Assembly: GCA_949152475.1 (NCBI GenBank)
Contig: OX424559.1
Location: 38,733,119-38,797,118, forward strand
Origin: Terebella lapidaria
Lineage: Eukaryota > Annelida > Polychaeta > Terebellida > Terebellidae
Direction of reading: 5' to 3'
Length of the DNA stretch: 64,000 bases
Position numbers and translations under genes: made by a program. Every line of letters starts with the position of its first letter. Positions within the stretch are counted from its first letter, which is position 1. Below the pieces are notes generated by a model. It did no database searches and was not told the origin of the DNA. It was given only the letters and a program-made list of their open reading frames with translations. Below are positions 17,656-58,041 of the stretch, in pieces.

Positions 17656-18139
17656 TTGATTGCTAAGCTGTAAAGTCGATAACAAGCGAGATATTAGCCT
17701 TTTTGTCCTGTGACCTTGAAAATGAGGTCGAAGGTCAAATTCAAGGTCATCAGAATATTCAGCATTTATCATTTCCTATATGTCCACAATTGATTCCTAA
17801 GCTGTAGAGTCGATAATAAGCGAGATATAAGCCATTTTGTGCTCTGACCTTGAAACTGAGGTCAGAGGTCAAATTCAAGGTCACGAGAATATTCAGCATA
17901 TATTATTTCCTGTATGTCCACAATTGATTCCTAAGCTGTAGAGTCGATAATAAGCGAGATACAAGCCATTTTGTGCTCTGACCTTGAAACTGAGGTCAGA
18001 GGTCAAATTCAAGGTCACGAGAATATTCAGCATATATCATTTCCTATATGTCCACAATTGATTCCTAGTCTCTAATCTCAATATCAAGTGAGATATTAGG
18101 CATAATGTGTCCCATTATAAAGCATAGGAGAATTTAACA
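17656..18139 (+). repeat. Family A satellite and start of the conserved module
   Basis: About three diverged 134-bp monomers, then the CTAGTCTCTAATCTC module, ending at GAATTTAACA where family B begins. No gene seen. Confidence 0.75.
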
Positions 18140-20506
18140 TAGCACCAAGGGTGCTGTAGCTTACCGGCAATCATGAGAAACGCAGAGTATTGATTTTCCA
18201 ACATATACATTGTTACACTGATCTTGAACTCTAATTGTCAAAAAATGTTCGTAAATGTTGCTGGAAACACATTTTCTGTATGGACTATAGTACGAAATCA
18301 AATTACACATCACAAAGGTACATAAAGAGAATCTTATACATGATTTTGAGAAAAACTGTCTGAATAGATTTAGACAAAATGGCCACCAAAGACAAATTTC
18401 ATCGTTTTTGACCTTCCAAGGTCATTATAATAATGAGCATTTTATAGTCTAGGATCACCAACTCAAGTCGGTCTCTCTGACTGCACAATTATTATCCCCG
18501 GCAGACCTGTTCACTCCGACACATACTCAACCTCCTGGGAGGCATACAGCTCCATGTGCAGCCATTATTTGGCGCAGGGAAACTGTGCATACACAATTGT
18601 CATCTCTGTCTATTGCCAGGTGCCCAATTATACTGTTTGGGTGAACAGCATACAGCAGCGCAGGTGAATGCACAAACAGGGTCACCCATCCATGTATTAC
18701 CCACGCCTAGCGTTGCTTAACTTCGGTGATCTTACGGGTACCGGTGTGTCATGCGCTACAAGGCCGTCATTGAAGGTCAAATTCAAGGTCATCACTCAAA
18801 CCGCATTATATGATTTCCCATTTGAATGTGCCAATACTTAGGCTCTATTTTGAAGTCTTTTTTTTTTTTTTTTTTTTTGCTGGAAATGGCTCAAAACGAA
18901 TAGTGACTTGATTTTGGACAAAAAAATTTTTTTTTGCTGACCCGTCAAAAATTTAAAATGGCCGCCACACGCAGACAGGCGATTCAAGGGTAACTAAACT
19001 TATACACATCATAGAGGTACATGAGGGGAATGTTTTAAAACAAAAATCTCGAAACTGATCACACAGTTTTTGAGAAAATGGCCATCAAGTCCAGAATTGG
19101 TCATTTTTCGACAAAAAAAGGTCGTTTTGACCTTCCAAGGTCATTGAAGGTCAAATTCAAGGTCATCACTCAAACCGCAATATATGGTTTCCCATTTGAA
19201 TGTGCCATTACTTAGGCTCTATCTTCAAGTGTTCTATGAGTTTACTCTGCACAGCTCCGATTATGAAGGAAAATTGGGTGAAATTTTCTAAGTCCAAAAA
19301 ATTTTTCAATGGCCAAAAAAAAATTTTTTTTTTTTTGCTGGAAATGGCTCAAAACGAATAGTGACTTGATTTGGGACAAAAAAAATTTTTTTCGCCGACC
19401 CTTCAAAAAATCAAAATGGCCGCCACACGCAGACCGGCAATTCAAGGGCAACAAAACTTATACACATCATAGAGGTACATGAGGGGAATGTTTTAAAACA
19501 AAAATCTCAAAACTGATCAGACAGTTTTTGAGAAAATGGCCATCAAGTCCAAAATTGGTCATTTTTCGACAAAAAAAGGTCGTTTTGACCTTCCAAGGTC
19601 ATTTTTGCTGGAAATGGCTCAAAACGAATAGTGACTTGATTTGGGACAAAAAAAAATTTTTTCGCCGACCCGTCAAAAAATCAAAATGGCCGCCACACGC
19701 AGACCGGCAATTCAAGGGCAACAAAACTTATACACATCATAGAGGTACATGAGGGGAATGTTTTAAAACAAAAATCTCAAAACTGATCAGACAGTTTTTG
19801 AGAAAATGGCCATCGAGTCCAAAATTGGTCATTTTTCGACAAAAAAAGGTCGTTTTGACCTTCCAAGGTCATTGAAGGTCAAATTCAAGGTCATCACTCA
19901 AACCGCAATATATGGTTTCCCATTTGAATGTGCCATTACTTAGGCTCTATCTTCAAGTGTTCTATGAGTTTACTCTGCACAGCTCCCATTATGAAGGAAA
20001 ATTGGGTGAAATTTTCTAAGTCCAAAAAATTTTTCAATGGGCAAAAAAATTTTTTTTTTTTTTTTTTGCTGGAAATGGCTCAAAACGAATAGTGACTTGA
20101 TTTGGGACAAAAAATTTTTTTTTCGCCGACCCGTCAAAAAATCAAAATGGCCGCCACACGCAGACCGGCGATTCAAGGGCAACGAAACTTATACACATCA
20201 TAAAGGTACATAAGAGGAATGTTTTGAAACAAAAATCTCAAAACTGATCAGACAGTTTTTGAGAAAATGGCCTCCAAAGTCCAAAATTGGCAATTTTTCG
20301 TCAAAAATGGCCACCAAATCGGCAAAAACGATTCAATCAAAAAAATTAAAAAAACGTCTTTAGATACTGGCCCAAGGTATGTTCTGACAAATTTATGGGG
20401 AAATTCATCACGTCAAAAAAAAGTTACAGACCCGGACGGACGACGGACGGACGACGGACGAAATACCACGACAATAGCTTATCGGCCCAAAGGGCCGGTA
20501 AGCTAA
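18140..20506 (+). mobile_element. Family B element with both ends
   Basis: Starts TAGCACC-AAG-GGTGCT then TAGCTTACCGGC, and ends with the hairpin AGCTTATCGGCCC / GGGCCGGTAAGCT and AA. The interior has repeated units of about 430 bp around a core (TCAAGGGCAACAAAACTTAT to TTTTTGAGAAAATGGCC) shared with family A, and half-sites such as AGGTCATTGAAGGTCA. It contains a 5S-SINE at 18427-18765. A second copy at 52534-60616 carries other insertions. Confidence 0.7.
18427..18765 (-). mobile_element. 5S rRNA-derived SINE (SINE3 class)
   Basis: On the minus strand the head reads GATCACCGAAGTTAAGCAAC then, after a short gap, ACATGGATGGGTGACC. These are the box A and box C parts of the 5S rRNA internal pol III promoter. 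The body is not recognised and the 3' tail is AT-rich. A GTCATT word sits on both sides (18421-18426 and 18766-18771), a plausible 6-bp target duplication within CCAAGGTCATTGAAGGTC of family B. It is not a functional 5S gene: the first third of 5S rRNA is not intact and an unrelated body follows. Confidence 0.75.
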
Positions 20507-21820
20507 AAATTAGGCCAAGGGCCGAAGATAGGTTACCGGACAATGTTTAATATTTTAGATGATAGCCAGGTCACTGGTTGAATTCAAGGTCAAGAGAATA
20601 TTCATCATATATAACATTAAGCATATATCATGTCCACAGTTGATTGCTACGCTGTACATTCAATAATCAGAGAGATATTAGCAATTTGTGCTGTGGCCTT
20701 GAAAATGAAGGGGCAAAGGTCAAATTCAAGGTCATCAAAATATTCAATGTATATCATTTTCTATATCATGTCCACAATTGATTCCCAAGCCATACATTCA
20801 ATAGAGGAGCAAGATATGAGCCAGTTTGTCTTTGGACCTTGAAAATGAGGTCAGAGGTCAAATTCAAGGTCATGAGAATATTCAGCATATATCATTTCCT
20901 ATATGTCCACAATTGATTCCTAAGCTGTAAAATCGATAATAAGTGAGATATTAGCCTGTTTGTCCTGTGACCTTGAAAATGAGATCAAAGGTCAAATTCA
21001 AAGTCATGATAATAATCTGCATATATCATTTCCTATATGTTCATAATTGATTGCTAAGCTGTAAAGTCGATAACAAGCGAGATATTAGCCATTTTGTCCT
21101 GTGACCTTGAAACTGAGGTTGAAAGTAAAATTCAAGGTCATCAGAATATTCAGCATATATCATTTCCTAATTCCTATATGTCCACAATTGATTCCTAAGC
21201 TGTAGAGTCGATAATAAGCGAGATATAAGCCATTTTGTGCTCTGACCTTGAAACTGAGGTCAGAGGTCAAATTCAAGGTCACGAGAATATTCAGCATATA
21301 TTATTTCCTATATGTCCACAATTGATTCCTAGGCTGTAGAGTCGATAATAAGCGAGATATAAGCCATTTTGTGCTCTGAACTTGAAACTGAGGTCAGAGG
21401 TCAAATTCAAGGTCACGAGAATATTCAGCATATATCATTTCCTATATGTCCACAATTGATTCCTAGTCTCTAATCTCAATATCAAGTGAGATATTAGGCA
21501 TAATGTGTCCCATTATAAAGCATAGGAGAATTTAACATGGGAAAGTCCCATTTGGGTCGAGTTTAGGCCAAAATGGCCAACTTCGAGCGATTCAAGCGCA
21601 ACGAAATTTATAGACATCATAGGAGTCCATATGAGGAGTGTTATGTATCAAAAAGAAAAAAAGTTACTGAACAGATTTTGAGAAAATGGCCGTCAAAGTC
21701 CAAAATCAGGCATTTTTCGTCGAAAACGGCCGCCATTTTGAAAATTTTGAAAATCCTTCTTGAATTATTTTTAAGTATTTTTGTGCAAAATTTCAGAAAA
21801 ATTCGCCTGTAAACAAAAAA
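20507..21820 (+). repeat. Family A variant (TTAGGCC start) with 134-bp satellite
   Basis: Follows the 3' end of family B directly. It begins TTAGGCCAAGGGCC with AGGTTACCGGAC, has about eight 134-bp monomers, then the ATGGGAAAGTCCCATTTGGG module and a fragment of the 3' tail. No gene seen. Confidence 0.7.
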
Positions 21821-23354
21821 TTAGCCCAAAGGATAAGATAGGTTACCGGACAATTTTGGTTTGGCCATGGCAGCATTGGCAGGTTACAGACCTTGAGATT
21901 TACCAATCAAGGTTCGCAGTGTAAATCCCAATCAAGGTCATCCGTATGAACTTCGATGTTACCATTACATGTATGTGTGCGGCATTTGATATTCTATATA
22001 TGTTGGGTGGAATCGTTTAGGCCGCTCAGGTCAATTTACACATTCCAAATCAGACATTTGGCACTCAAGGTCATCTGACGTCAAGTTCAAGGTCATCATT
22101 AGTTGTGCCATATATGTCTTCCTGTTCGTAACATGAGCTCTCTCTGCAAGCATTCCATCTACAGAGGCAAATCTGGGCATTTTTTGACCCCAAAATGGCT
22201 GTTTTGACCTTTCAAGGTCATCGAAGGTCAGATTCAAGGTCACCACACAAGTCGCCATATATGACTTCCCATTTGAAAGTGCCAATTTCTAAGCTCTATC
22301 TTCAAGCGTTCTATGAGTACAGTCTGGACAGCTCCCATTATGAAGGAAAAAAGTGCCGAAAATTTTCTAAGTCTGAAAAAAAATTTTCCCCTAGAAATGG
22401 CCCAAAATGGATAGTAATGCGATTTGGGGCGAAAAAATTTTTTTCGCAGACTCGTCAAAAATTCAAAATGGCCGCCACAAGGAGATCGGCGATTCAAGGG
22501 CAACAAAACTTATACACGTCACAGAGGTATATACGAGGAATCTTTTTAAGCAAAAATCTCAAAACTGATCAGACACTTTTTGAGAAAATACAGACCAGGT
22601 GCAAATTTGAGCGTTTTTCGACCCCAAAATGGCTGTTTTGACCTTTCAAGGTCATCCAAGGTCAAATTCAAGGTCACCACACAAGTCACCATATATGACT
22701 TCCCATTTGAAAGTGCCAATTTCTAAGCTCTATCTTCAAGCGTTCTATGAGTACAGTCTGGACAGCTCCCATTATGAAGGAAAAAAGTGCCGAAAATTTT
22801 CCAAAATTTTTTTCAAAGGGTAAACATTTTTTTGCCCTAGAAATGGCCCAAAATGGATAGTAATGCGATTTGGGGTGAAAAAAAATTTTTACGCCGACCC
22901 GCCAAAAATTAAAAATGGCCACCACACGGAAACCGGCAGATTTAGGGCAACCAAACTTATACATATCACAGAGGTATATGAGGGGAATCTTTTGAAACCA
23001 AAAACTCAAAACTGATCAGACAGTTTTTGAGAAAATGGCTGTCAAAGTCCAAAATTGAGCGTTTTTCGACAAAAACGGCCGCCATTTTGAAAAAAATGCG
23101 AAAATCAAAAAACAAAAAAATACCTCCTTCTCAAAATATTTTTAGGCATTTTTGTGCAAAATTTCAGAAAGATTCGATCGTTAACTTTAAAGATAAAAAT
23201 GTTAACGCCGGACGGACGGACGGACGTCCGTCCGTCCATCCGGCGTTAACATTTTTATCTTTAAAGTTAACAATCGAATCTTTACGGACGGACGGCGGAC
23301 GACGGACGCAACGCCATGCCAATAGGTTATCGGACCAAAGGTCCGGTAACCTAA
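21821..23354 (+). mobile_element. Family A2 element, 434-bp internal units
   Basis: Has the 5' family A end (GGTTACCGGACAATTTTGG), then units with GACCTTTCAAGGTCATC about 434 bp apart (near 22200 and 22634), and the hairpin 3' end at 23322-23354. The 3' half carries a long perfect-centre palindrome (23168-23283). The reading frames inside, of 60-150 codons on both strands, are repeat by-products. Confidence 0.65.
23168..23283. repeat. Palindrome, 58-bp arms, no spacer
   Basis: The arm 23168-23225 (AAAGATTCGATCGTTAAC onward to GGACGGAC) is followed at once by its reverse complement to 23283, with about two mismatches. Other family A copies have a simple (GGAC)n tract here, so this copy arose by an inverted duplication of the tract and its left flank. 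Confidence 0.9.
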
Positions 23355-27873: not shown

Positions 27874-29293
27874 TCAGTTGTACCCTGGACATTCGTCTTC
27901 AGTGTTGAGACCCATGGGGAAGTGAGTGTGTAGCCGGTACTGCCACATTTTCTCGAGAGTTTCTCTCAGGTGTCTATTTTCGTCAGTAGGTGCTCCCTGG
28001 CAGAAGCCGAGTACATACACCCTGACGTCGCGCAGACCCGCATGTTTGTTGGGGGCAGAGTAGTGGAGACCCAGTGCATTGGAAGTGTTGGCGGTCTCGA
28101 TGTTTCGAAAGTGCTCATAAAGCCTTCGTTGTAGGATACGTTTGGTCTGGCCGACATAGAGTTTGTGGCATTTTTGGCATTGGATGGCGTAAATCAGGTT
28201 GTTGCTGAGACAGGATACATTGGTTCTGGCCTTGTATCTGCGTTTGGTGATGGGATCCATAATGGTACCGTCTTTTTGGATTTTGGTACAGTATTTGCAG
28301 TTTGGTTTTTGGCAGTGCACTTTAGGTTGTTTTGGTTTTGGGGTATGGTTAGGGATTTGCGCCCTTACTAGCATGTTCCTAAGGTTGGGGGGACGTCGCT
28401 GTCCAAAGATGATTTGTCTCTGGTGTAGGTGTCTGGTAGCTTTATTCCTGAGGAGAATGTCCCAGTTTTGGGTAATTATCTCCCGGAAGCCATGAAAGCC
28501 TGGTTGGTAAGTAGTGATGGCGAAGAGTTTGTCTGTAGGGGTTGAGGTGGGGGTGTCTGGTTTAGGTTTAGGACGGAGGAGGTTTTCCCTGGACTGTAGT
28601 TGTGCTTTGAGGAGGGAATCATCTAGTAGTTTTTGGGGGTAACCTCTTTTTAGAAAGTGTGTCGAGAGTTCAAGTGCTTTTTGCTTGAAATCGTCTGGAT
28701 CGCTGCAGATGCGGCGTATCCGTAGGAATTGGCTGTAAGGAAGGCCGTTTTTGCAGTGAAGAGGGTGACTGGAGTCATAGTGTAGGTACATATGAGTGTC
28801 AGTGGGTTTACTGAAAAGAGTAGTAAGGATGCTATGGTTGGCATCCAAAGAGACTAGGGTGTCCAGAAAGGGGATGGAACTGGTGGAGGAATCCATAGTG
28901 AATTTGATTGTATCATGACAAGAGTTTAAGTGGTCGAGGAGCTTGTTGAGCTCTGGTTGGCCATGTTGCCACAGGAGGAAGATGTCATCTATATAGCGGA
29001 CCCAAAGGAGAGGTTGTTTGGGGTATGTGTAGACATGGGAATCCTCGAAAGTATTCATCATTATGACAGCGTAGTTTGGTGCTGCTTTGGTTCCCATGGC
29101 GGTTCCTCCTATTTGGAGGTAGTGCTTGCCGTTGAATTGAAAGTTGTTCATCGTGAGAACCATTTTAAGGAGTCTGATGAGTGAGACATTAGAAGGGTAT
29201 TGTCCATTTGGGCGGTATTTGTTGAGGTAAGAGAATACCGCTTTGATACCGTCACTGTTGGGTATGTTCGTGTAAAGGGAGACTACGTCCAGA
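27874..29293 (-). pseudogene. 5'-truncated RT/GIY-YIG copy, unit 1
   Basis: Encodes the C-terminal part of the Penelope-like protein from about residue 360 of the full ORF2 (TLDVVSLYTN) through YIDD and the GIY-YIG domain to the same C-terminus. The RT fingers and the N-terminus are absent. Its sequence equals unit 2 and differs from the full copy by at least one base (ANHSIL against ADHSIL). It is unlikely to be active on its own. Confidence 0.9.
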
Positions 29294-29318
29294 GTTTCGT
29301 CCTGGTGGGACTCATCAG
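29294..29318 (-). ncRNA. Hammerhead ribozyme core, copy 2
   Basis: Same core as at 26186. Here GAAAC joins directly to the truncated RT sequence (ACTCTGGACG), so the ribozyme marks the border of the tandem unit. Confidence 0.8.
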
Positions 29319-29643
29319 GCCAGGATAGGGGAAAGAATTGGAAATAGAGGGGAGGATGCGAAAGTTAGGGGCAAGAAACCATCCTTAGCTGATTTTTGGG
29401 TCAGCTCCCTGTTGTGGGCAAGATCTGAGTGGGTGTTTCAGAAACAGGATGGTCCTCAGGGTATTGAGGAGGAGAGGCTCAGGGCTTTGTGGGCTAAAGA
29501 AGGGACACATTTTTAGTGTATCCAGATTTTGTCTGTGAGTGAGGTGAACTGTAAACTGGACGTCTTCCAAGTGTGTTGCACTAGTGGAAGTGGGCTGAGG
29601 GTACGACCTTCACGAGATATATAAAAAAGGAACGAGGCAAAGA
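29294..29643 (-). other. Non-coding segment between RT units (ribozyme end)
   Basis: About 350 bp from the RT stop of the upstream unit to the hammerhead core; the same segment lies at 31064-31413. The small minus-strand ORF in it (29385-29570) is repeated with the segment and shows no known domain. Confidence 0.7.
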
Positions 29644-31063
29644 TCAGTTGTACCCTGGACATTCGTCTTCAGTGTTGAGACCCATGGGGAAGTGAGTGTG
29701 TAGCCGGTACTGCCACATTTTCTCGAGAGTTTCTCTCAGGTGTCTATTTTCGTCAGTAGGTGCTCCCTGGCAGAAGCCGAGTACATACACCCTGACGTCG
29801 CGCAGACCCGCATGTTTGTTGGGGGCAGAGTAGTGGAGACCCAGTGCATTGGAAGTGTTGGCGGTCTCGATGTTTCGAAAGTGCTCATAAAGCCTTCGTT
29901 GTAGGATACGTTTGGTCTGGCCGACATAGAGTTTGTGGCATTTTTGGCATTGGATGGCGTAAATCAGGTTGTTGCTGAGACAGGATACATTGGTTCTGGC
30001 CTTGTATCTGCGTTTGGTGATGGGATCCATAATGGTACCGTCTTTTTGGATTTTGGTACAGTATTTGCAGTTTGGTTTTTGGCAGTGCACTTTAGGTTGT
30101 TTTGGTTTTGGGGTATGGTTAGGGATTTGCGCCCTTACTAGCATGTTCCTAAGGTTGGGGGGACGTCGCTGTCCAAAGATGATTTGTCTCTGGTGTAGGT
30201 GTCTGGTAGCTTTATTCCTGAGGAGAATGTCCCAGTTTTGGGTAATTATCTCCCGGAAGCCATGAAAGCCTGGTTGGTAAGTAGTGATGGCGAAGAGTTT
30301 GTCTGTAGGGGTTGAGGTGGGGGTGTCTGGTTTAGGTTTAGGACGGAGGAGGTTTTCCCTGGACTGTAGTTGTGCTTTGAGGAGGGAATCATCTAGTAGT
30401 TTTTGGGGGTAACCTCTTTTTAGAAAGTGTGTCGAGAGTTCAAGTGCTTTTTGCTTGAAATCGTCTGGATCGCTGCAGATGCGGCGTATCCGTAGGAATT
30501 GGCTGTAAGGAAGGCCGTTTTTGCAGTGAAGAGGGTGACTGGAGTCATAGTGTAGGTACATATGAGTGTCAGTGGGTTTACTGAAAAGAGTAGTAAGGAT
30601 GCTATGGTTGGCATCCAAAGAGACTAGGGTGTCCAGAAAGGGGATGGAACTGGTGGAGGAATCCATAGTGAATTTGATTGTATCATGACAAGAGTTTAAG
30701 TGGTCGAGGAGCTTGTTGAGCTCTGGTTGGCCATGTTGCCACAGGAGGAAGATGTCATCTATATAGCGGACCCAAAGGAGAGGTTGTTTGGGGTATGTGT
30801 AGACATGGGAATCCTCGAAAGTATTCATCATTATGACAGCGTAGTTTGGTGCTGCTTTGGTTCCCATGGCGGTTCCTCCTATTTGGAGGTAGTGCTTGCC
30901 GTTGAATTGAAAGTTGTTCATCGTGAGAACCATTTTAAGGAGTCTGATGAGTGAGACATTAGAAGGGTATTGTCCATTTGGGCGGTATTTGTTGAGGTAA
31001 GAGAATACCGCTTTGATACCGTCACTGTTGGGTATGTTCGTGTAAAGGGAGACTACGTCCAGA
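29644..31063 (-). pseudogene. 5'-truncated RT/GIY-YIG copy, unit 2
   Basis: Identical layout and start point to unit 1, offset 1,770 bp. The shared breakpoint means the two units came from one truncated copy that was then duplicated in tandem, not from two separate insertions. Confidence 0.9.
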
Positions 31064-31088
31064 GTTTCGTCCTGGTGGGACTCATCAG
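31064..31088 (-). ncRNA. Hammerhead ribozyme core, copy 3
   Basis: Identical core and identical junction to copy 2, exactly 1,770 bp away. Confidence 0.8.
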
Positions 31089-31413
31089 GCCAGGATAGGG
31101 GAAAGAATTGGAAATAGAGGGGAGGATGCGAAAGTTAGGGGCAAGAAACCATCCTTAGCTGATTTTTGGGTCAGCTCCCTGTTGTGGGCAAGATCTGAGT
31201 GGGTGTTTCAGAAACAGGATGGTCCTCAGGGTATTGAGGAGGAGAGGCTCAGGGCTTTGTGGGCTAAAGAAGGGACACATTTTTAGTGTATCCAGATTTT
31301 GTCTGTGAGTGAGGTGAACTGTAAACTGGACGTCTTCCAAGTGTGTTGCACTAGTGGAAGTGGGCTGAGGGTACGACCTTCACGAGATATATAAAAAAGG
31401 AACGAGGCAAAGA
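31064..31413 (-). other. Non-coding segment after full ORF2 (ribozyme end)
   Basis: 3' untranslated segment of the full copy, running into the hammerhead core at 31064-31088 and then into truncated unit 2. Confidence 0.7.
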
Positions 31414-33912
31414 TCAGTTGTACCCTGGACATTCGTCTTCAGTGTTGAGACCCATGGGGAAGTGAGTGTGTAGCCGGTACTGCCACATTTTCTCGAGAGT
31501 TTCTCTCAGGTGTCTATTTTCGTCAGTAGGTGCTCCCTGGCAGAAGCCGAGTACATACACCCTGACGTCGCGCAGACCCGCATGTTTGTTGGGGGCAGAG
31601 TAGTGGAGACCCAGTGCATTGGAAGTGTTGGCGGTCTCGATGTTTCGAAAGTGCTCATAAAGCCTTCGTTGTAGGATACGTTTGGTCTGGCCGACATAGA
31701 GTTTGTGGCATTTTTGGCATTGGATGGCGTAAATCAGGTTGTTGCTGAGACAGGATACATTGGTTCTGGCCTTGTATCTGCGTTTGGTGATGGGATCCAT
31801 AATGGTACCGTCTTTTTGGATTTTGGTACAGTATTTGCAGTTTGGTTTTTGGCAGTGCACTTTAGGTTGTTTTGGTTTTGGGGTATGGTTAGGGATTTGC
31901 GCCCTTACTAGCATGTTCCTAAGGTTGGGGGGACGTCGCTGTCCAAAGATGATTTGTCTCTGGTGTAGGTGTCTGGTAGCTTTATTCCTGAGGAGAATGT
32001 CCCAGTTTTGGGTAATTATCTCCCGGAAGCCATGAAAGCCTGGTTGGTAAGTAGTGATGGCGAAGAGTTTGTCTGTAGGGGTTGAGGTGGGGGTGTCTGG
32101 TTTAGGTTTAGGACGGAGGAGGTTTTCCCTGGACTGTAGTTGTGCTTTGAGGAGGGAATCATCTAGTAGTTTTTGGGGGTAACCTCTTTTTAGAAAGTGT
32201 GTCGAGAGTTCAAGTGCTTTTTGCTTGAAATCGTCTGGATCGCTGCAGATGCGGCGTATCCGTAGGAATTGGCTGTAAGGAAGGCCGTTTTTGCAGTGAA
32301 GAGGGTGACTGGAGTCATAGTGTAGGTACATATGAGTGTCAGTGGGTTTACTGAAAAGAGTAGTAAGGATGCTATGGTCGGCATCCAAAGAGACTAGGGT
32401 GTCCAGAAAGGGGATGGAACTGGTGGAGGAATCCATAGTGAATTTGATTGTATCATGACAAGAGTTTAAGTGGTCGAGGAGCTTGTTGAGCTCTGGTTGG
32501 CCATGTTGCCACAGGAGGAAGATGTCATCTATATAGCGGACCCAAAGGAGAGGTTGTTTGGGGTATGTGTAGACATGGGAATCCTCGAAAGTATTCATCA
32601 TTATGACAGCGTAGTTTGGTGCTGCTTTGGTTCCCATGGCGGTTCCTCCTATTTGGAGGTAGTGCTTGCCGTTGAATTGAAAGTTGTTCATCGTGAGAAC
32701 CATTTTAAGGAGTCTGATGAGTGAGACATTAGAAGGGTATTGTCCATTTGGGCGGTATTTGTTGAGGTAAGAGAATACCGCTTTGATACCGTCACTGTTG
32801 GGTATGTTCGTGTAAAGGGAGACTACGTCCAGAGTTACCAGTAGGGTGTTCTCTGGGACAGTTTGGAACTTGGACAGTATGTTCAGAAAGTGAGTAGTGT
32901 CGCGTAAATAGGATTTCCCTTTTTGGGGCAAGTCCCTGATGAAATGGTCGATAAACTGGGAGATTCTCTCGGTGGGGCTGTTGTTGCCTGAGATGATAGG
33001 GCGACCTGGTGGTGGTAACTTGCCCTTATGTATTTTGGGTAGCATGTAGAAACGAGCTTCCCGCACCTTGAAGTTGGTAAGGTAGTCCAGACATTTTTCT
33101 GATATCTCTCCATTATCGTACATGGAGGTCACTTGTTTGGTGATGAGATCCATGTGAGATTGGGTGAGGTCTAGGGCGGTTTCTTGATAATACTTGGGGT
33201 CTGACAGTTGTCGTAACCCCTCAGTTATATAGTCGTCGGTGTTCAAGATAACTACAGCTGAGCCCTTGTCGGCTGGTTTAATGGTGATGGAATGGTTGTT
33301 CATTAAGTCCCTGAGGGCTGTTTTTTCCTCGGGGGACAAGTTTTGCTTGTGTGGGGATCTGGGGTGGATAGCTTGGACTTTCATCTCGTTGCTAAGTGCC
33401 ATGCTTTCCAGGGTTGGTGGTCCTGGTGGGGGGCGCCATTTGGACTTGTTGCGGAAATTGGCGTGGTCAAAGCCAAGATCATCCGGAAAAATAGATTGTA
33501 GGAGAGAAACGTCTGGATTGGTTGAATCTAGCTCGAGAGGTGGTTTTGCCTCGAAGTAATGTTTTAGGCGTAAGGACCGGTGAAAGCTGTCAAAGTCCGA
33601 TCTTAGGCTACTTAGGTTGATTTCACCTGGTGTCGGACAGAAGTTCAGACCTTTAGAAAGAAGAGAAACATGGTGATTATCAAGTTCAACGTCGGATAGG
33701 TTGATAACCGGTGAGTTGGAGGTGAGTATATCTAAAGAGACTGTAGGTATATTCTGGTTGTTGTTGTTGTTTAGATTGGTGACACTGTATTTGAAAGAGT
33801 GAAGGTGGTTAGCCATGTGTGGTCGGAGTCGAGAGAAGAAGTAGTAAAAAGAGGAAAGTTTATTAAACAGAACCGAGCGAAAGTGGGTAAACATGGTAAA
33901 AAGAACAGGCAA
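31414..33912 (-). CDS. Penelope-like ORF2: reverse transcriptase with GIY-YIG endonuclease, 832 aa
   Basis: The protein copies element RNA at the nicked target. Seen in order: Penelope N-terminal motif LSKGLNFCPTP (about 85-95), DKGSAVVIL (215-223), YMLPKIHKG (289-297), RT motif LDVVSLYTNIP (361-371), GTAMGTKAAP (423-432), the catalytic RYIDDIFLLW (459-468), then a C-terminal GIY-YIG nuclease with LIYAIQ, a CQKC pair (732-735) and LYVGQTKR (738-745). Length and order match endonuclease-bearing Penelope-like elements. The frame is open throughout. The start chosen is the first ATG, 56 nt after ORF1; a later Met (for example residue 33) is possible. The copy looks whole and may be recent. Confidence 0.93.
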   Translation of the reverse strand: MPVLFTMFTHFRSVLFNKLSSFYYFFSRLRPHMANHLHSFKYSVTNLNNNNNQNIPTVSLDILTSNSPVINLSDVELDNHHVSLLSKGLNFCPTPGEINLSSLRSDFDSFHRSLRLKHYFEAKPPLELDSTNPDVSLLQSIFPDDLGFDHANFRNKSKWRPPPGPPTLESMALSNEMKVQAIHPRSPHKQNLSPEEKTALRDLMNNHSITIKPADKGSAVVILNTDDYITEGLRQLSDPKYYQETALDLTQSHMDLITKQVTSMYDNGEISEKCLDYLTNFKVREARFYMLPKIHKGKLPPPGRPIISGNNSPTERISQFIDHFIRDLPQKGKSYLRDTTHFLNILSKFQTVPENTLLVTLDVVSLYTNIPNSDGIKAVFSYLNKYRPNGQYPSNVSLIRLLKMVLTMNNFQFNGKHYLQIGGTAMGTKAAPNYAVIMMNTFEDSHVYTYPKQPLLWVRYIDDIFLLWQHGQPELNKLLDHLNSCHDTIKFTMDSSTSSIPFLDTLVSLDADHSILTTLFSKPTDTHMYLHYDSSHPLHCKNGLPYSQFLRIRRICSDPDDFKQKALELSTHFLKRGYPQKLLDDSLLKAQLQSRENLLRPKPKPDTPTSTPTDKLFAITTYQPGFHGFREIITQNWDILLRNKATRHLHQRQIIFGQRRPPNLRNMLVRAQIPNHTPKPKQPKVHCQKPNCKYCTKIQKDGTIMDPITKRRYKARTNVSCLSNNLIYAIQCQKCHKLYVGQTKRILQRRLYEHFRNIETANTSNALGLHYSAPNKHAGLRDVRVYVLGFCQGAPTDENRHLRETLEKMWQYRLHTHFPMGLNTEDECPGYN

Positions 33913-33968
33913 CAGGAGTAGACAAAAGCTAAAGAACTGTTGGTTGAAGAAGAAAGAATAGGCAAAGT

Positions 33969-35429
33969 TTAGAGGTTGAGTAGTTTGAGAAGTTGTCGTT
34001 TCTGGTAGGCATTGAGTGGTGTGTCCCTCCTTCGGCTTTGGCGGGGTCCCGACGAGTTGGCGCGGTTCCTGGGAGGTTGGGGACTGGGGTTCTTGCGTGA
34101 TGGTTGTCGAGGGCTGCGGGATCTGGGTCTCCTGTTGGAGGGTTCCTGTCCCCGGCGTGAAGAGGGGCCCGGTTGGGGACTCGTCCCACGCCTCCCTTGA
34201 AAAGGGCGTGATTTAGCTGATTGATTGGATGCTGTGGTCCCCATGCGGGTGGCGGCGTATGCATTGACATCTAGGGGTCGGTCTTTAGTTTCCTTTTCCC
34301 TGCTTTCTAGTGTGGATTGCAGTTTGGCAGTCTCCTTCCGGACGACGTCCTGCAGCTGGAATACGTATTGTTGCAGGGTATCCGGGGAATCTTTCATGAG
34401 ATATTCCAGAGTGGTGGTGTGGGCATTGGCCTGGGCGACTTGGCGGAAGCTGTATTCTCGTAGAGTGTCAGCCAGCTGGAGGAGGGTGTCCTCTGCTTGC
34501 TTGCGGAACAGTGCCGAGATCTCCTGTGTGGCTTGTTTATCAAGGTGGCTGTTCCCTGGGATGATATTGTTGCCCAGGGTCCAGACGGGGATGGTGCCCG
34601 TCGTTGCCATCCTACGGAGGGTGTTTGAACGTAGGAGGGCCTTGTCAGCGGTAATTTGGCAGCTACGGGCCTGTCTCCAGGTAGGTAGCACATCCTCTCG
34701 GATGGGGATGTGGGTGATCTGACTGGCATCATTGGGTGTCAGTCCAAAGGAGTTGATCAGGCTGTCCTGTGGCAGTTTTGTGGCCATGAGGTGTGTGTTT
34801 GGGGCCTGGGAAGAAGAGAAGGGAGGCTGGTTAGAGGCTAGAGAGTGGTCAGAAACAGAAACAGAAGGGGCAAGGTTGTTGCCGAGAGAGTCTCCCAAGG
34901 GGGTGTCTGTTTCTGAGAGAACTCGTCTTCTTTTGGAGGACGGTTTAAAAGTGACAGATGACTGGTCGTCAAAATTGTCCGTATTGCTGTCAGTGGGTTT
35001 GGATGTGACAATAATTGTAGGGACAGCTGTGTTAACAGCCGTGTTCGAGTCGTAGTGAAAGATATGAGAAACGTGGATATTATTAAGTTGTGATGAAGTA
35101 GATTCATCAAGTTTGAGTGCTGATAAGTCGAGCGACTGGCTGACAGACTGGGTCGGCTCGGACAGCACGTGGTTTTGTTTACAATTACTGCTGTCTAGCG
35201 GGACCGCACTGAATGTGCTCAAATCTTCCTGGCTGGAATTGGGTGTGACGAAGGGTGTGTCTGGGTCAGATGACGCGAGACAGCCAATCGCGTTCGCGCT
35301 TGCAAAAGGCGATTGGAGCGCTTGGAAGATGGCGGTGCTTACCTTGTTGGCAGTGCCGAGTACATTGGGATTTTCCGTAGTACTGTTTTGTAGGGTCAGA
35401 GCTGGCTGCGATTTTTGCGTTGAAGCCAT
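33969..35429 (-). CDS. Penelope-like element ORF1, unknown function, 486 aa
   Basis: This open frame lies just upstream of ORF2 on the same strand and within the same target-site duplications, so it belongs to the element. I recognise no domain. Residues 1-200 are rich in Ser, Thr, Asn and Gln; about 245-390 look helical (ISALFRKQAEDTLLQLADTL and following); about 395-475 are strongly basic with Arg, Ser, Pro and Gln (RGQEPSNRRPRSRSP), suggesting nucleic-acid binding. No zinc knuckle is seen. Many Penelope-like elements have a single ORF, so a long separate ORF1 is notable. A role in RNA packaging or delivery is inference only. The start follows a short 5' leader (35430-35523). Confidence 0.8.
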   Translation of the reverse strand: MASTQKSQPALTLQNSTTENPNVLGTANKVSTAIFQALQSPFASANAIGCLASSDPDTPFVTPNSSQEDLSTFSAVPLDSSNCKQNHVLSEPTQSVSQSLDLSALKLDESTSSQLNNIHVSHIFHYDSNTAVNTAVPTIIVTSKPTDSNTDNFDDQSSVTFKPSSKRRRVLSETDTPLGDSLGNNLAPSVSVSDHSLASNQPPFSSSQAPNTHLMATKLPQDSLINSFGLTPNDASQITHIPIREDVLPTWRQARSCQITADKALLRSNTLRRMATTGTIPVWTLGNNIIPGNSHLDKQATQEISALFRKQAEDTLLQLADTLREYSFRQVAQANAHTTTLEYLMKDSPDTLQQYVFQLQDVVRKETAKLQSTLESREKETKDRPLDVNAYAATRMGTTASNQSAKSRPFQGRRGTSPQPGPSSRRGQEPSNRRPRSRSPRQPSRKNPSPQPPRNRANSSGPRQSRRRDTPLNAYQKRQLLKLLNL

Positions 35430-37739: not shown

Positions 37740-39474
37740 TTAGCCCAAGGGCTAAGAAAGGTTACCGGACAATGAATATTTTAGATATTAGCCTTTTGTC
37801 CCATGACCTTGAAAGTAAGGTAGTTGGTCAATTCTAGGTCACGAGAATATTCTGCCCATATCATTTCTAGCATGTCCACAATTGATTCCTAAGCTGTAAA
37901 GTCGATATTAAGTGAGATATTATCCATTTTGTGATCTGACCTTGAAAATGAGGTCAAAGGTCAAATTCTAGGTCATGACAATAATCTGCATATATCATTT
38001 CCTATAAGTTCATAATTGACTCCTACACTGTAAAGTCAATAATAAGCGAGATATTACCCATTTTGTACTCTGACCTTGAAACTGAGGTCAGAAGTCAAAT
38101 TCAAGGTCACGAGAATATTCAGCATATATCATTTCCTATATGTCCACAATTGATCCCTAAGCTGTAAAATCGATAATAAGTGAGATATTAATCATTTTGT
38201 GGTGTGACCTTGAAAATGAAGTCAAAGGTCAAATTCAAGGTCATCAGAATATTCGGCATATATCATTTCCTATATGTCCACAATTGATTCCTAAGCTGTA
38301 AAGTCGATAATAAGCAAGATATTAGACATTTTATGCTCTGACCTTGAAACCGAGGTCAGAGGTCAAATTCAAGACCCTGAGAATATTCAGCATATATCAT
38401 ATCCTATATGTCCACAATTGATTCCTAGTCTCTAATCTCAAGATTAAGTGAGATATTAGGCTTAATGTGCCCCATTATAAACCATAGGAGAATTTAACAT
38501 GGGAAAGTCCCATTTGGGCCGAGTTTGGGCCCAAAATGGCCCATTTCGAGCGATTCAAGGGCAACGAAATTTATACGTGTCACAGGGGTACATATCAGGA
38601 GTGTTATGCATTGATAAGAAAAAAAGTTACTGAACAGATTCTGAGAAAACGACCGTCAAAGTCCAAAATTGGCCATTTTTCGACGAAAATGGCCCTCTGA
38701 CCTTGAAACCGAGGTCAGAGGTCAAATTCAAGGTCACCAGAATATTCAGGATATATCATTTCCTATATCTCCACAATTGATCCCTAGTCTCTAATCTCAA
38801 TATTAAGTGAGATATTAGGCTTAATGTGTCCCATTATAAAGCATAGGAGAATTTAACATGGGAAAGTCCCATCTGGGCCGAGTTTGGGCCCAAAATGGCC
38901 CACTTCGAGCGATTCAGGGGCAACGAAATTTATACATGTCACAGGGGTACCTATGAGGAGTGTTATGCATCGATAAGAAAAAAAGTTACTGAACAGATTT
39001 TGAGAAAACGACCGTCAAAGTCCAAAATTGGCCATTTTTTGACGAAAGCGGCCGCCATTTTGAAAAAAATTCGAAAATCAGAAAACTAAAAAAAACCTTT
39101 CCTGGAAATATTTTTAGGTATTTTTGTGCAAAATTTCAGAAATATTCCATCATAAACTTTAAAGATAAAAATGTGAACGGACGGACGGACGGACGACGGA
39201 CGCCGGACGCAACGCCATGGCAATAGGTTATCGGACCAAAGGTCCGGTAACCTAAAAAATGCGAAAATCAAAAAACAAAAAAATACCTCCTTCTCAAAAT
39301 ATTTTTAGGCATTTTTGTGCAAAATTTCAGAAAGATTCGATCGTTAACTTTAAAGATAAAAATGTTAACGCCGGACGGACGGACGGACGGACGGACGGAC
39401 GGACGGACGGACGGACGGATGACGGACGCAACGCCATGCCAATAGGTTATCGGACCAAAGGTCCGGTAACCTAA
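37740..39474 (+). repeat. Family A copy with satellite, modules and two 3' ends
   Basis: Five 134-bp monomers, two ATGGGAAAGTCCC modules (38490 and 38850), then hairpin ends at about 39253 and 39474. The second has a long (GGAC)n tract (39375-39418). No gene seen. Confidence 0.75.
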
Positions 39475-46795: not shown

Positions 46796-48970
46796 TGGGG
46801 CGACCCATGGTGTCATGAGCCTAATGTCTCATGGGGTGATCCATGGTGTCATGAGCCTGATGGTCTCATGGGGTGATCCATGCTGCCATGAGCCTGATGG
46901 TCTCATGGAGTGATCCATGCTGCCATGGGCCTGATGGTTTCATGGGGTGATCCATGGTGTCAAGAGTCTGATAGTCTCATGGGGTGATCCACGGTGTCAT
47001 GAGGTTAATGGTCTCATGGGGTGATCTATGGTGTCATGAGCCTGATGGTCTCATGGGGTGATCCATGGTGTCATGAGTCTGATAGTCTCATGGGGTGATC
47101 CATGGTGTCATAAGGTTAATGGTCTCATGGGGTGATCTATGGTGTCATGAGCCTGATGGTCTCATGGGGTGATCCATGGTGTCATGAGTCTGATGGTCTC
47201 ATGGGGTGATCTATAGTGTCATGAGGTTAATGGTCTCATGGAGTGATCTATGGTGTCATGAGCCTGATGGTCTCATGGGGTGATCTATGGTGTCATGAGC
47301 CTGATCGTCTCATGGAGTGATCCATGGTGTCATGAGCCTGATGGTCTCATGGGGTGATCCATGGTGTCAAGAGTCTCATAGTCTCATGGGGTGATCCATG
47401 GTGTCATGAGTTTAATGGTCTCATGGAGTGATCAATGGTGTCACGAGTCTGATGGTCTCATGGGGTGATCCTTGGTGTCATGAGCCTGATGGCCTCATGG
47501 GGTGATCCATGGTGTCATGACGTTAATGGTCTCATGGGGTGTCCTATGGTGTCATGAGAATGATGGTTTTATGGGGTGATTCATGGTGTCATGAGCCTGA
47601 TGGTCTCATGGAGTGATCGATGGTATCATGAGTCTGATGATCTCATAAGAAAATCCATGATGCCATGAGGTTAATGGTCTCATGGGGTGATCTATGGTGA
47701 CATGAGCATGATCGTCTCATGGGGGTGATCCATGGTGTCATGAGGTTAATGGTCTCATGGGGTGATCCATGGTGCCATGAGCCTGATGGTCTCATGGGGT
47801 GATCCATGGTGTCATGAGCCTGATGGTCGCATGGGGTGATCCATGGTGTCATGAGCCTGATGGTCGCATGGGGTGATCCATGGTGTCATGAGCCTGATGG
47901 CCTCATGGGGTGATCCATGGTGTCATGAGCCTAATTGTCTCATGGGGTGATCCATGGTGTCATGAGTCTAATGGTCTCATTGGGTGATCCATGGTGTCAT
48001 GAGCCTAATTGTCTCATGGGGTGATCCATGGTGTCATGAGTCTAATGGTCTAATGGGGTGATCCATGGTGTCATGAGCCTAATGGTCTAATGGGGTGATC
48101 CATGGTGTCATGAGCCTAATGTCTTATGGGGTGATCCATGGTGTCATGAGCCTGATGGTCTCATGGGGTGATCCATGGTGTCATGAGCCTAATGGTCTCA
48201 TGAGGTGATCCAAGGTGTCATGAGCCTGATGGTCTCATGGAGTGATCCATGGTGTCATGAGCCTAATGTCTCATGGGGTGATCCATGGTGTCATGAGCCT
48301 GATGGTCTCATGGGGTGATCCATGGTATCATGAGCCTAATAGTCTCATGAGGTGATCCATGGTATCATGAGCCTAATAGTCTCATGAGGTGATCCATGGT
48401 GTCATGAGCCTAATGTCTTATGGGGTGATCCATGGTGTCATGAGCCTGATGGTCTCATGGGGTGATCCATGGTGTCATGAGCCTAATGTCTTATGGGGTG
48501 ATCCATGGTGTCATGAGCCTGATGGTCTCATGGGGTGATCCATGGTGTCATGAGCCTAATGTCTTATGGGGTGATCCATGGTGTCATGAGCCTAATGTCT
48601 TATAAGGTGATCCATGGTGTCATGAGCCTGATGGTCTCATGGGGTGATCCATGGTGTCATGAGCCTAATGTCTTATGGGGTGATCCATGGTGTCATGAGC
48701 CTGATGGTCTCATGGGGTGATCCATGGTGTCATGAGCCTAATGGTCTCATGGGGTGATCCATGGTGTCATGAGCCTGATGGTCTCATGGGGTGATCCATG
48801 GTATCATGAGCCTAATAGTCTCATGGGGTGACCCATGGTGTCATGAGTCTAATGGTCTAAAGGGGTGATCCATGGTGTCATGAGCCTAATGGTCTAAAGG
48901 GGTGATCCATAGTGTCATGAGCCTAATGTCTCACGGGGTGATCCATGGTGTCACGAGCCTGATGGTCCTC
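46796..48970 (+). repeat. 37-bp minisatellite, about 58 units
   Basis: Unit of 36-37 bp around GGTGATCCATGGTGTCATGA and GCCTGATGGTCTCATGG. Each unit contains CATGAG...CTCATG, a 6-bp-arm hairpin. From about 48110 to 48720 two variants alternate (CCTGATGGTCTCATGG and CCTAATGTCTTATGG), giving a 73-bp higher-order repeat. It lies in ZPR1 intron 1 about 330 bp from exon 2. Long ORFs in it are by-products. Confidence 0.95.
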
Positions 48971-49223: not shown

Positions 49224-51805
49224 CTAGACGTCAAGGCCTGAAGATGCCTTGGGGCATTTCATGTGAGTTCTATTCCTAGCTAACATATACCTAAGAGACC
49301 GTGTCTAGAACCATGATGACTCTGAAACTGTCCGTGGTCAAAGTTTAAGTGACATACCCCACCCTAAGGCATCTTTGCGTTTTGCTCTACGACGCACCGT
49401 TTCCGAGATACGGCAAACAGGAAGTGCTGAGTCGGTGAAAAAAAATTCGACACCAGAAGTCGTCTCGACCCAAGATACCCTCTAGACTAGTTAGTCTAGT
49501 GCCAGGAGGCTGAAATTAAGCTCCGTTTCGCTGTACGACGCATCGTTTCCGACATAACACCAAACAGAAAGTGCCGAGTCGGTGAAAAAACAAATTTGAC
49601 ACCAGAAGACATCTCAGCCCAAGATACTCCCTAGACTAGTTTGACTAGTGCCAGGAGGCCGAAATTGAGCTCCGTTTCGCTCTACGACGCACCGTTTCCG
49701 AGATACGGCCGAACAGGAAGTGCCGAGTCGGCAAAAAAAAATTCGACACCAGGGGTCGTTTCGACCCAAGATACCCACTAGACTAGTTTGTCTAGTGCCA
49801 GCAGGCCGAAATTGAGCTCCGTTTCGCTCTACGACGCACCGTTTCCGAGATACGGCCCAACAGGAAGTGCAGAGTCGGCGAAAATAAATTCGACACCAGG
49901 GGTCGTCTCGACCCAAAATATCCCCTAGACTTGTTTGTCTAGTGCCAGAAGCCGGAATTGAGCTCCGTTTCGCTCTACGACGCACCGTTTCCGAGATACG
50001 GCCCAACAGGAAGTGCAGAGTCGGCGAAAATAAATTCGACACCAGGGGTCGTCTCGACCCAAAATATCCCCTAGACTTGTTTGTCTAGTGCCAGAAGCCG
50101 GAATTGAGCTCCGTTTCGCTCTACGACGCACCGTTTCCGAGATACGGCCAAACAGGAAGTTCCGAGTCGGCGAAAAAAAAATTGACACCAGGTGTCGTCT
50201 CAACCCAAAATACCCACTAGACTAGTTTGTCTAGTGCCAGAAGTCCGGAATTGAGCTCCGTTTCGCTCTACGACGCACCGTTTCCGAGATACGGTCGAAC
50301 AGGAAGTGCCGAGTCGGCGAAAATAAATTCGACACCAGGGGTCGTCTCGACCCATAATACCCACTAGACTAGTTTGTCTAGTGCCAGAAGTCCGGAATTG
50401 AGCTCCGTTTCGCTCTACGACGCACCGTTTCCGAGATACGGTCGAACAGGAAGTGACGAGTCGGCGAAAATAAATTCGACACCAGGGGTCGTCTCGACCG
50501 ATAATACCCACTAGACTAGTTTGTCTAGTGCCAGAAGTCCGGAATTGAGCTCCGTTTCGCTCTATGACGCACCGTTTCCGAGATACGGTCGAACAGGAAG
50601 TGACGAGTCAGCGAAAATAAATTCGACACCAGGGGTCGTCTCGACCCAAAATACCCACTAGACTAGTTTGTCTAGTGCCAGAAGGCCGGAATTGAGCTCC
50701 GTTTCGCTCTACGACGCACCCTTTCCGAGATACGGCCCAACAGGAAGTGCCGAGTCGGCGAAAATAAATTCGACACCAGGGGTCGTCTCGACCCAAAATA
50801 CCCCCTAGACTTGTTTGTCTAGTAACCTAAGGCCGGAATTGAGCTCCGTTTCGCTCTACGACGCACCGTTTCCGAGATACGGCCAAACAGGAAGTTCCGA
50901 GTCGGCAAAAAAAAAAATTGACACCAGGTGTCGTCTCGACCCAAAATACCCACTAGACTAGTTTGTCTAGTGCCAGAAGGCCGGAATTGAGCTCCGTTTC
51001 GCTCTACGATGCACCGTCTCCGAGATACGGTCGAACAGGAAGTGCCGAGTCGGCGAAAATAAATTCGACACCAGGGGTCGTCTCGACCCATAATACCCAC
51101 TAGACTAGTTTGTCTAGTGCCAGAAGTCCGGAATTGAGCTCCGTTTCGCTCTACGACACACCGTTTCCGAGATACGGTCGAACAGGAAGTGCCGAGTCGG
51201 CGAAAAAATAAATTCGACACCAGGGGTCGTCTCGACCCAAAATACCCCCTAGACTAGTTGTCTAGTGCCAGGAGGCCGAAATTGAGCTCTGTTTCGCTCT
51301 ACGACGCACCGTTTCCGAGATACGGCCGAACAGGAAGTGCCGACTCGGCAAAAAAAAATTCGACACCAGGGGTCGTTTCGACCCAAGATACCCCCTAGAC
51401 TAGTTTGTCTAGTGCCAGGAGGCCGAAATTGAGCTCCGTTTTGCTCTACGACGCACCGTTTCCGAGATATGCATGAAAGCCTCAAGGATGAATCAGCAAA
51501 AATTCTTCCGAGCTCTAGGTCAGAGGTCGTTCGGCGGATTGATCCCAAAATCAATAGGGTTCTTCCCTGGTGGTATATGAACTCCCATGCATAGAATACT
51601 TGCCATTGCATGAATACTTTTTGAGTTATCGATCGGAAACCAAGTCTCAAAATAAACCTTGATTTCATCCTCACAGACCTCACGGACCCCGGAGCCGCCT
51701 CCAAAACAATAGGGGTCTTCCATGTAATATTTCTGACCAGTGGTGTAAATTTGGACAAGATCCATTCAGGCGTTCCCGAGTTATTGATCGGAAACCAAAA
51801 CGGCG

Positions 51806-52533: not shown

Positions 52534-52732
52534 TAGCACCAAGGGTGCTGTAGCTTACCGGCAATCATGTGAATGGGCTTCTCTGGGAGTAGTTAAAACG
52601 TCATTCGACAGGCGGCAGCACCTACGACTAGGTCCCACTGGCGGACCAAAGAAAAAACGGCGCACGATCGTTCGGACATTTCAAAACATTCACTCTCGGT
52701 AAACTTGAAAGTTAATTTATGACACAGAGAGG

Positions 52733-52827
52733 ATGGAATATGGATCGTGGGACTTAAAACGTTTGAAAGAAGAGTTGGGGAACCGTAATGCTAAGAAATC
52801 TGGGAGGAAACACGAACTTGTCAAACG
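52733..52827 (+). CDS. Nuclease gene exon 1, SAP domain start
   Basis: From ATG at 52733: MEYGSWDLKRLKEELGNRNA then KKSGRKHELVK, ending CG before a GTGAGC donor. The pattern L..EL..R....SG.K.EL..RL is a SAP DNA-binding motif, completed by exon 2 (RLEDYDRN). This exon was found by splicing logic and is too short to stand out as an ORF. Confidence 0.8.
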
Positions 52828-53752
52828 GTGAGCGATATTAGGTGAAAATTCCTATGACTATCACTATGTAAACAATGATAGCATTCGATTCGAACTTAGT
52901 GGTTCCGTTTGAACTTACACCTGCTTTTTTTCAGTTGTTTGTTCCTGTGCATTTTTAATAAGTTTTGTGTTTTGTTGGGTTCATTACTGTGCCAGGATTG
53001 ACATTACTGTGCCAGGAAGAAACCTGGATGAATTGGCCTGTGACACTGTGAGTAGTTACTCAGACTCAGAGACAGAGTAGCCAAAGTTGCTGCCAAGCCA
53101 TAGTCCCCACATGGCTGATCATCACTGATCATTCATGGTAAGCTGGTAAGTAAGTGTTAGATCTGATACCCAATGCCAATGGTTAGACATTGATTTTTTT
53201 TTTTGGAATTGTGGCTAGAACAGATAGATCTAATTGTTCTTGTATTGAATGATTGGTGTCACCAAAGCTTATAAATATTAGAGGAATTTATTAGTCTAAA
53301 TCCGAAATTGTTAATGACCCCTCTGTATGAGATATGTATCAATAGTGAACAAAAATACAAACTGTTTCTTTGAACAGAAAATCATGCTAATTTGACGTTG
53401 ACTAATTTGATCTACATGATCTAGTTTAAAAATATATAATGTGGTTTTCTGTGATTTACACTGTACAGTGGCCACACCAGGATCACACTGAGATAACTGT
53501 TCATTTTCACAATTGTTATGATTTTAGCACAGAGTGAATCAACTAAATTCTTATTTGAGCCATTTGCTGTTTCAAGTATGGAAATTAATTTCATGCTTTT
53601 TCTGAGAATCACCCTTTTCTCAAAACTTTATCATGAGCATGAACAAATATATTATCTTGAATCACAACTCTTGTCATAGGTATATTCTCATGAATCTGTA
53701 AGCATGTTAAGATGGTTGAGCTGTGAATTAAAACTTATTCTTGTTCTTTCAG

Positions 53753-53867
53753 ACTCGAAGATTATGATCGTAACAAGGATTTCGGGCGAACCCTTGTGGA
53801 TGAGGATGCCTACAGCATGGCTACACCTGATGTCCGCTTGTACAAGGATATCAACGCTTCCACTGAT
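53753..53867 (+). CDS. Nuclease gene exon 2
   Basis: Follows a CTTTCAG acceptor and ends before GTAGGT. Joined to exon 1 it reads RLEDYDRNKDFGRTLVDEDA and on to LYKDINASTD, keeping one frame into exon 3. It completes the SAP domain and adds a linker. Confidence 0.8.
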
Positions 53868-56342: not shown

Positions 56343-56507
56343 CAGTGTTGTGATTTCGTTGTGTTTACCATGAAGGACTTGAAAATATGTCAAATACCAA
56401 GAAATGAAGAATTCATTTCCGACATGGTACAGAAGTTTGTCAGCTGCAGTGTACATGCACCTTTGGGTTGGATGGAGATTGAGGAAATAAATGACTTACT
56501 TAGATGA
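56343..56507 (+). pseudogene. C-terminal tail of the YqaJ nuclease beyond the stop
   Basis: In frame with exon 3: QCCDFVVFTMKDLKI and EEFISDMVQKFVSC up to DLLR. CDFVV is the usual strand after the QGQL helix in YqaJ domains. Confidence 0.75.
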
Positions 56508-56566
56508 AAAAGTTTTCAACAATTATCTGTGTTCAACATGACATTTATTCGGTGAATTTCAGTCAT

Positions 56567-57636: not shown

Positions 57637-57921
57637 CTGTTGAAATAATTGTACATGTTGGAAATTATTTGAGGTGCAACACCCAGCGCTGTCGTTATAA
57701 CTGATATTATTTGTGTCAGATTTATATTCTAAATTGAATATTCCCTATTATTGACGTCATTAGAAGCAGCAATCAAAACATGTGCAATTTACCATGTTCT
57801 CACATTTACCAGCAAAGTAAACTAGTATAGAATTCTCATTAGACGCAAAATATACATGAATCAGATTAATAATATATTTTTCAGGGGGTCGGATATGTTT
57901 AATATTAGGGGTTCTGCATAC
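57637..57921 (-). other. Transposase intron 2
   Basis: Intron by splice signals; no other feature seen. It is AT-rich like the rest of the spacer DNA. Confidence 0.5.
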
Positions 57922-58041
57922 TTCTCATCCGAGTTTTGGCTCGTCTTCGCCTAGAAAGGGCTGCATCAGTCGCCTGCTTTTTCCAGGAAAACACACTTGG
58001 TACTGCTGTCTTCTTTAGCCTTTGTTGATCAGGATTGGTGC
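57922..58041 (-). pseudogene. ISL2EU transposase, exon 2 (linker)
   Basis: 120 bp between TTCCTAG and GTATGC. It reads TNPDQQRLKKTAVPSVFSWK then RRRRAKTR; the RLKKxAVPS motif is the usual sequence after a THAP domain. The junction with exon 1 gives VYG-TNPDQQ. Confidence 0.7.

Follow-up and report, generated by a model that had tools for sequence, protein, structure and literature searches.

Two families of non-autonomous Helitron2/Helentron elements in an annelid genome, with co-varying ends and a near-invariant mispair in the 5′ hairpin

The repeat families A and B belong to a known kind of mobile element, the non-autonomous Helitron2/Helentron elements (HINEs), and the co-variation of their two ends is a known property of that class, compensatory change at such ends having been described along with a pairing model in the text of Bao and Jurka 2013 (PMC3627910). 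To this the present analysis adds the concordance of the ends among genomic copies, a Rep-helicase family with a matching 3′ end, and a mispair in the 5′ hairpin that is close to invariant. It is highly probable that A and B are HINEs lying on the minus strand, probably copied by a Rep-helicase, with ends that are likely to co-vary through the pairing envisaged by Bao and Jurka and with a hairpin that is weakened by the mispair. A repeat family of very high copy number (13,524 5′ hairpins) is now placed in a known class, and its two natural end codes, together with the mispair, provide material for testing the published model of Helitron2 end pairing.

In Helitron2, as laid out in the text of PMC3627910, the 5′ repeat lies 0–2 bp from the 5′ end and forms part of a hairpin, and the 3′ repeat lies ~20–30 bp from the 3′ end, directly upstream of a hairpin. 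Since this published layout fits A and B when they are read on the minus strand, the elements run on that strand: a T-run precedes the palindromic 5′ subterminal repeat, a GTCC-type microsatellite and an internal part that in many A copies contains 134-bp repeats come next, and the 3′ subterminal repeat and the 3′ hairpin are followed by a T-rich flank. The 5′ end of A on the minus strand is a T-run followed by TAGGTTACCGGACC-TTT-GGTCCGATAACCTA, of which B has its own form, and the 3′ hairpins on the same strand are TTAGCCC-CTT-GGGCTAA (A) and AGCACC-CTT-GGTGCT (B). An earlier note on this DNA, made from the letters alone, had named the ends the other way round: what it called a "3′ hairpin" is in fact the palindromic subterminal repeat of the 5′ end, and its "small palindrome" is, by the published Helitron2 layout, the 3′ terminal hairpin. 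The likeness to Helitron2/Helentron elements that it proposed holds, both in the fit of the minus-strand layout and in the existence, in the same genome, of a Rep-helicase family whose 3′ end is of A type, but the polarity that it gave does not.

The window (the whole stretch of 64,000 nucleotides that was analysed, C5:38733119-38797118 of the host assembly) contains 11 intact 5′ hairpins (10 A, 1 B), all of the form 14 + 3 + 14 and with the + strand consensus TAG[G/C]TTATCGG[A/C]CC-NNN-GG[T/G]CCGGTAA[C/G]CTA, in which the bracketed positions vary jointly. An A-run, which is the T-run of the element strand, adjoins all 11, so that the 5′ repeat sits inside a hairpin at the 5′ end; the 3′ subterminal repeat lies ~19–25 bp from the flank with the 3′ hairpin in between, as is characteristic of Helitron2 and HINEs. 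The word does form a hairpin arm, as had been claimed, but the pairing is imperfect, with one T-G pair on the + strand in 11 of 11 intact hairpins, and the ending CTAG, given as one of two possible endings, occurs only at a degenerate copy (60589). Helitron1 is ruled out by the presence of a 5′ hairpin in every intact copy examined, whereas Helitron1 elements lack this hairpin and have the ends 5′-TC and CTRR-3′. The proposed extent of element B (18140–20506) is borne out in the window sequence; a conserved AACA at 18136–18139 may also belong to its 3′ end.

Table 1. Positions of the parts of elements A and B in the window
Feature	Position	Strand	Basis
Element B, complete	18140..20505	-	Window sequence, hairpin layout
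B 5′ end: palindromic subterminal repeat, hairpin 14 + 3 + 14 with one mispair	20475..20505	-	Sequence and folding
B microsatellite, GTCC-type on the element strand	20431..20464	-	Sequence
B 3′ subterminal repeat, + strand word AGCTTACCGGC	18158..18168	-	Word search
B 3′ terminal hairpin, 6 + 3 + 6	18141..18155	-	Sequence and folding
5S rRNA-derived piece in element B	18650..18771	-	Rfam RF00001, 46.8 bits (gathering score 38)
Element A, complete, empty site elsewhere	37740..39254	-	Hairpin layout, joined-flank comparison
A 5′ end hairpin with mispair	39224..39254	-	Hairpin layout
Further A 5′ hairpins	6434, 6540, 23323, 36546, 36748, 36831, 39443, 42109, 45687		
A 3′ subterminal repeat, + strand word AGGTTACCGGA	37759..37769	-	17 A-type words in window
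A 3′ terminal hairpin, + strand TTAGCCC-AAG-GGGCTAA	37740..37756	-	
Element A; second A-type 3′ end next on the + strand at 23384	21821..23353	-	
134-bp central repeats adjoining an A-type 3′ end	20581..21501	-	One of many window arrays

The end words of both families, reported earlier by inspection, are real and far above chance. In the window GGTTACCGGAC, with at most one mismatch, has 45 matches versus 0.49 expected from shuffles (six of the 45 read GGTTTCCGGAC and resemble another repeat), and AGCTTACCGGC has six versus 0.41. In the host assembly as searched (761.6 Mb, 438 contigs), the 5′ hairpin pattern including the mispair occurs 13,524 times (6,616 + 6,908; control 0), and there are 17,425 matches to the pattern of the 3′ word (8,579 + 8,846; control 12); the two totals were not used to argue for one-ended transposition, as the patterns are unequal in strictness. 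In the window 17 A-type 3′ ends compare with 10 intact A 5′ hairpins, a surplus due in part to the tandem repetition of 3′-end blocks (795–24712; for example at 12993, 14500, 15621 and 17130).

Empty sites were sought by comparison with joined flanks, in 13 rows that represent 12 distinct elements (L018 and L019 being the same element). The complete A element at 37740–39254 has an empty site of 99.3% identity over 147 nt in L026 and another of 98.6% at window positions 23020–23166; further empty sites belong to L013 (95.9%), the L018/L019 element (85.2%) and the window element at 5039 (83.8%). The spanning matches of L020 and of the element at window 21840 were rejected because they represent a neighbouring second 3′ end, and for six of the 13 rows there was no spanning empty site in the sequence compared. 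In the best case, that of 37740–39254, the breakpoints fall in A-runs beside the hairpins; because they sit in A/T runs the exact insertion base (T/T) cannot be fixed, and a short target duplication would be hidden by the A-runs on both sides.

Two positions distinguish A from B, the third base (G/C) and the eleventh (A/C), and at both of them the difference is complemented at the opposite end and inside the hairpin, in agreement with the matched base changes that the earlier note had pointed out. The co-variation is upheld by genomic copies: among the 82 hairpins and 100 words listed for C1:1-3.02 Mb, with neighbours less than 6 kb apart taken as pairs, word-to-hairpin pairs were A-A in 45 cases, B-B in seven and mixed in none (52/52; Fisher p 7.5e-9), a tally and a p value that count copies, which trace back to few independent base changes. 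Within that distance and region, 72 neighbouring words and hairpins shared a strand and three were on opposite strands. The first 100 listed 3′ words comprise 86 A, 14 B and no hybrid, and the inner pair is kept in 99 among the first 100 listed hairpins. A third combination, with the outer pair B-like and the inner pair A-like, is represented by one of the 31 distinct hairpins at the fetched loci; its stem is paired and its mispair kept, and the 3′ word of this element was looked for and not found. Compensated variants beyond A and B are rare, with outer A-T forms of the hairpin in two copies and altered inner pairs in 13, numbers that argue against a wide code. From the paired change we infer that both ends are jointly recognised, and put this no more strongly because the difference between A and B reflects few evolutionary events and because base 12 of the Rep family breaks the pattern.

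The mispair is C-A on the element strand and T-G on the other strand. As the left arm of the hairpin is one base off from the opposite-end word (TTACCGG), only the right arm is an exact partner of that word. In the host assembly 13,524 hairpins carry the mispair, as against 32 sites repaired on one arm and 73 on the other. With at most one mismatch the hairpin pattern has 19,488 matches, which gives 5,964 single-base variants; the repaired sites match on both strands, so that 64 + 146 were subtracted, and the remaining 5,754 correspond to ~111 copies for each of the 52 other single changes, a mean and not a set of per-position rates. Repair of the mispair is not favoured. For the A hairpin, DNA folding gave energies (kcal/mol) of -10.2 for the element strand, -11.6 for its complement and -15.0 if closed, the corresponding values for B being -11.8, -13.2 and -16.6; the end-to-end duplex came to -15.0 (A) and -15.4 kcal/mol (B), and the A/B hybrid duplexes to -11.1 and -8.7 kcal/mol. 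These computed energies are compatible with, and no proof of, a switch in which the hairpin gives way to end-to-end pairing, and which the mispair could tune.

A Rep-helicase gene between A or B ends, which the earlier note proposed to look for, was recovered with respect to its 3′ end, with 34 matches reaching an A-type terminus and 26 of them accompanied by Rep; its 5′ end was not reached. A profile search with PF14214 returned at least 150 matches (the best 150 of 234 candidates), the Rep open frames reaching up to 2,866 codons. Behind one such gene, C9:36049350 (L077), stands CTCCGGTAACCTTTCTAGCCCTTGGGCTAATTTT, and a 436-nt query made of the gene tail and this end gave 42 matches, as listed from the best 40 of 589 candidates. 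Among those listed, 32 end at base 434, one at 435 and the source itself at 436, the shorter ones ending at 156 (seven) or 259 (one), so that 34 of the 42 attain the terminus. For 26 of these 34, Rep is found at most 25 kb upstream in the same orientation, and for 23 of them at most 9 kb upstream, in a tally that took the source copy as ending at base 434 and left out one 50-base match of the query. The 3′ word of the Rep family is AGGTTACCGGAG, not GAC; it has 11 of 12 bases as in A and differs at base 12. The hairpin predicted from it under full co-variation had no hit, and the 5′ end of this A-type family was not in the upstream stretches read. Judged from these sequence matches, its link to A is probable.

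Around the Rep genes, no A or B word was found upstream at ten loci (3.5–5 kb each), and no inverted pair joined the Rep flanks (ten loci upstream, nine downstream with 4–4.5 kb). Of the nine stretches read downstream, L077 and L078 contain an A-type 3′ end; that of L078 was rejected as a Rep terminus, as it is part of an independent A element that had inserted behind the gene, and L079 has a weaker A-like match (84% over 44 nt). Another Rep family, represented by two nearly identical copies, showed no ends in the stretches read, and Pfam returned no match for a 100-aa endonuclease-like segment from a Rep family other than the A-type one; an endonuclease domain fused to the Rep-helicase is the mark that sets Helentron apart from Helitron2. 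Upstream of Rep in the A-type family (L069, L086) there are a DUF6570 match and a sub-threshold match of herpesvirus tegument type and, further upstream, a frame that by eye resembles the end of a retrotransposon, the sequence directly behind which recurs near several Rep copies.

On the preferred reading, A and B are probably copied by Helentrons of the same genome that encode Rep-helicase, through rolling-circle replication. Late in replication, following the model of Bao and Jurka (2013), the 3′ repeat would pair with the 5′ repeat and thereby open the 5′ hairpin, marking the end of the element. A base change would then need its match in the 5′ repeat, in the hairpin partner and in the 3′ repeat, and the mispair, according to the computed energies, leaves the 5′ hairpin less stable than the duplex between the ends, which may be its role. 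Agreement by descent only, with a few master elements that had matched ends and with functional pairing unneeded today, is a possible but rather unlikely alternative. Nearly everything falls into two families (86 A and 14 B among the first 100 listed words), so that the 52 concordant copies reflect few events, and base 12 of the Rep family departs from the co-variation pattern. However, the passage from A to B took matched changes at two positions in each of three places (left arm, right arm and other end), and the third combination likewise retains a paired stem; comparable compensatory change is known from Culex elements, according to the text of PMC3627910, and DINE-1 structure is described as retained despite sequence change (PMC2374699). 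It is very improbable indeed that A and B are MITEs of a cut-and-paste transposon with inverted ends, even though they are small, non-coding and very numerous, carry inverted words at either end, and resemble in this DINE-1, which the text of PMC2374699 describes as formerly classed that way: their repeats are asymmetric and lie at unequal distances from the ends, where a MITE or TIR transposon would have symmetric terminal inverted repeats, each end has a separate hairpin, and the A-type 3′ end terminates a Rep-helicase family.

For the mispair, a frozen ancestral base without function is a reasonably likely explanation, since one ancestor that had it may underlie all copies. Less easily reconciled with a frozen base are its retention in A, B and the third combination while other stem pairs changed, and the numbers of repaired forms (32 and 73 sites), which fall below the ~111-copy mean per other single change. 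We consider it doubtful that the mispair goes as far as acting as an end sensor, such that a matching 3′ repeat would open the hairpin for the right partner alone and on one strand only, A and B then serving as end codes that are read separately; if it did, the hairpin would be weaker (C-A) on the element strand than the duplex between the two ends, and the mispair better tolerated (T-G) on the other strand.

Several other features lie in or near the elements. A 341-nt stretch around the 5S-derived piece of element B (18440–18780) recurs at 99–100% identity in 40 of the 40 best of 511 candidates, the window included, and since such copies are found on many contigs this stretch has spread recently. 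The left flank of element B (18130–18140), GAATTTAACA, equals the sequence beside a palindrome, AACATGGGA-AAG-TCCCAT (21530–21550), which sits inside A copies and is built like the 3′ end of a B-like element; it is possibly the end of a third family, replaced by that of B. Minus-strand open frames at 27874–34212, with a GIY-YIG domain, a YIDD reverse transcriptase motif recognized by eye and a last portion of 496 codons present three times, belong to what we take to be a Penelope-like element. A second B-type element of ~8 kb (52552–60612), whose 3′ word is intact and whose 5′ hairpin is degenerate, encloses genes for YqaJ and for a DDE_Tnp_4 transposase, presumably a nested ISL2EU-type transposon. 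Tandem repeats of 37 bp (~59 copies) and 147 bp (~14 copies) occupy 46796–48967 and 49378–51469, respectively.

With Helitron2, as described in the text of PMC3627910, A and B share asymmetric terminal inverted repeats, a 5′ hairpin that contains the 5′ repeat, a 3′ repeat followed by a hairpin, apparently a T-rich target, and compensatory changes; the same text proposes the switch from hairpin to end pairing and reports compensatory changes in two related elements. A and B have a mispair in the 5′ hairpin and that text, its figure aside, mentions none; nor was a conserved mispair of this kind found in the texts of PMC3627910, PMC4067079, PMC5148889, PMC7492417 and PMC2374699, figures and supplements aside, so that it may be the one new detail here. 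The texts on Helentrons and HINEs (PMC4067079), with T-runs at the borders, and on fungal Helitron2 elements (PMC5148889) present the same plan. Cg_HINE of Crassostrea gigas (text of PMC7492417), compared by architecture and not by sequence, resembles A and B in its 11–12 bp 5′ subTIR with an adjoining complementary repeat, its GTCY/GTCC microsatellite, its satellite-like central repeats, and a 3′ subTIR followed by a palindrome. No autonomous partner is tied to Cg_HINE in that text, which leaves the link unresolved in the oyster, whereas for the HINE family A a Rep-helicase candidate can be named that has the 3′ end in common, the 5′ end not yet. Helentron/HINE elements and DINE-1, in the accounts of PMC4067079 and PMC2374699, likewise have a palindromic or partly repeated 5′ subTIR, a microsatellite, central repeats and a 3′ stem-loop, and they insert at TT with T-runs at the borders, the breakpoints of A and B lying in A/T runs. 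DINE-1 copy numbers reach at least 5,424 in PMC2374699, compared with 13,524 hairpin patterns for A and B, figures obtained by differing counting methods.
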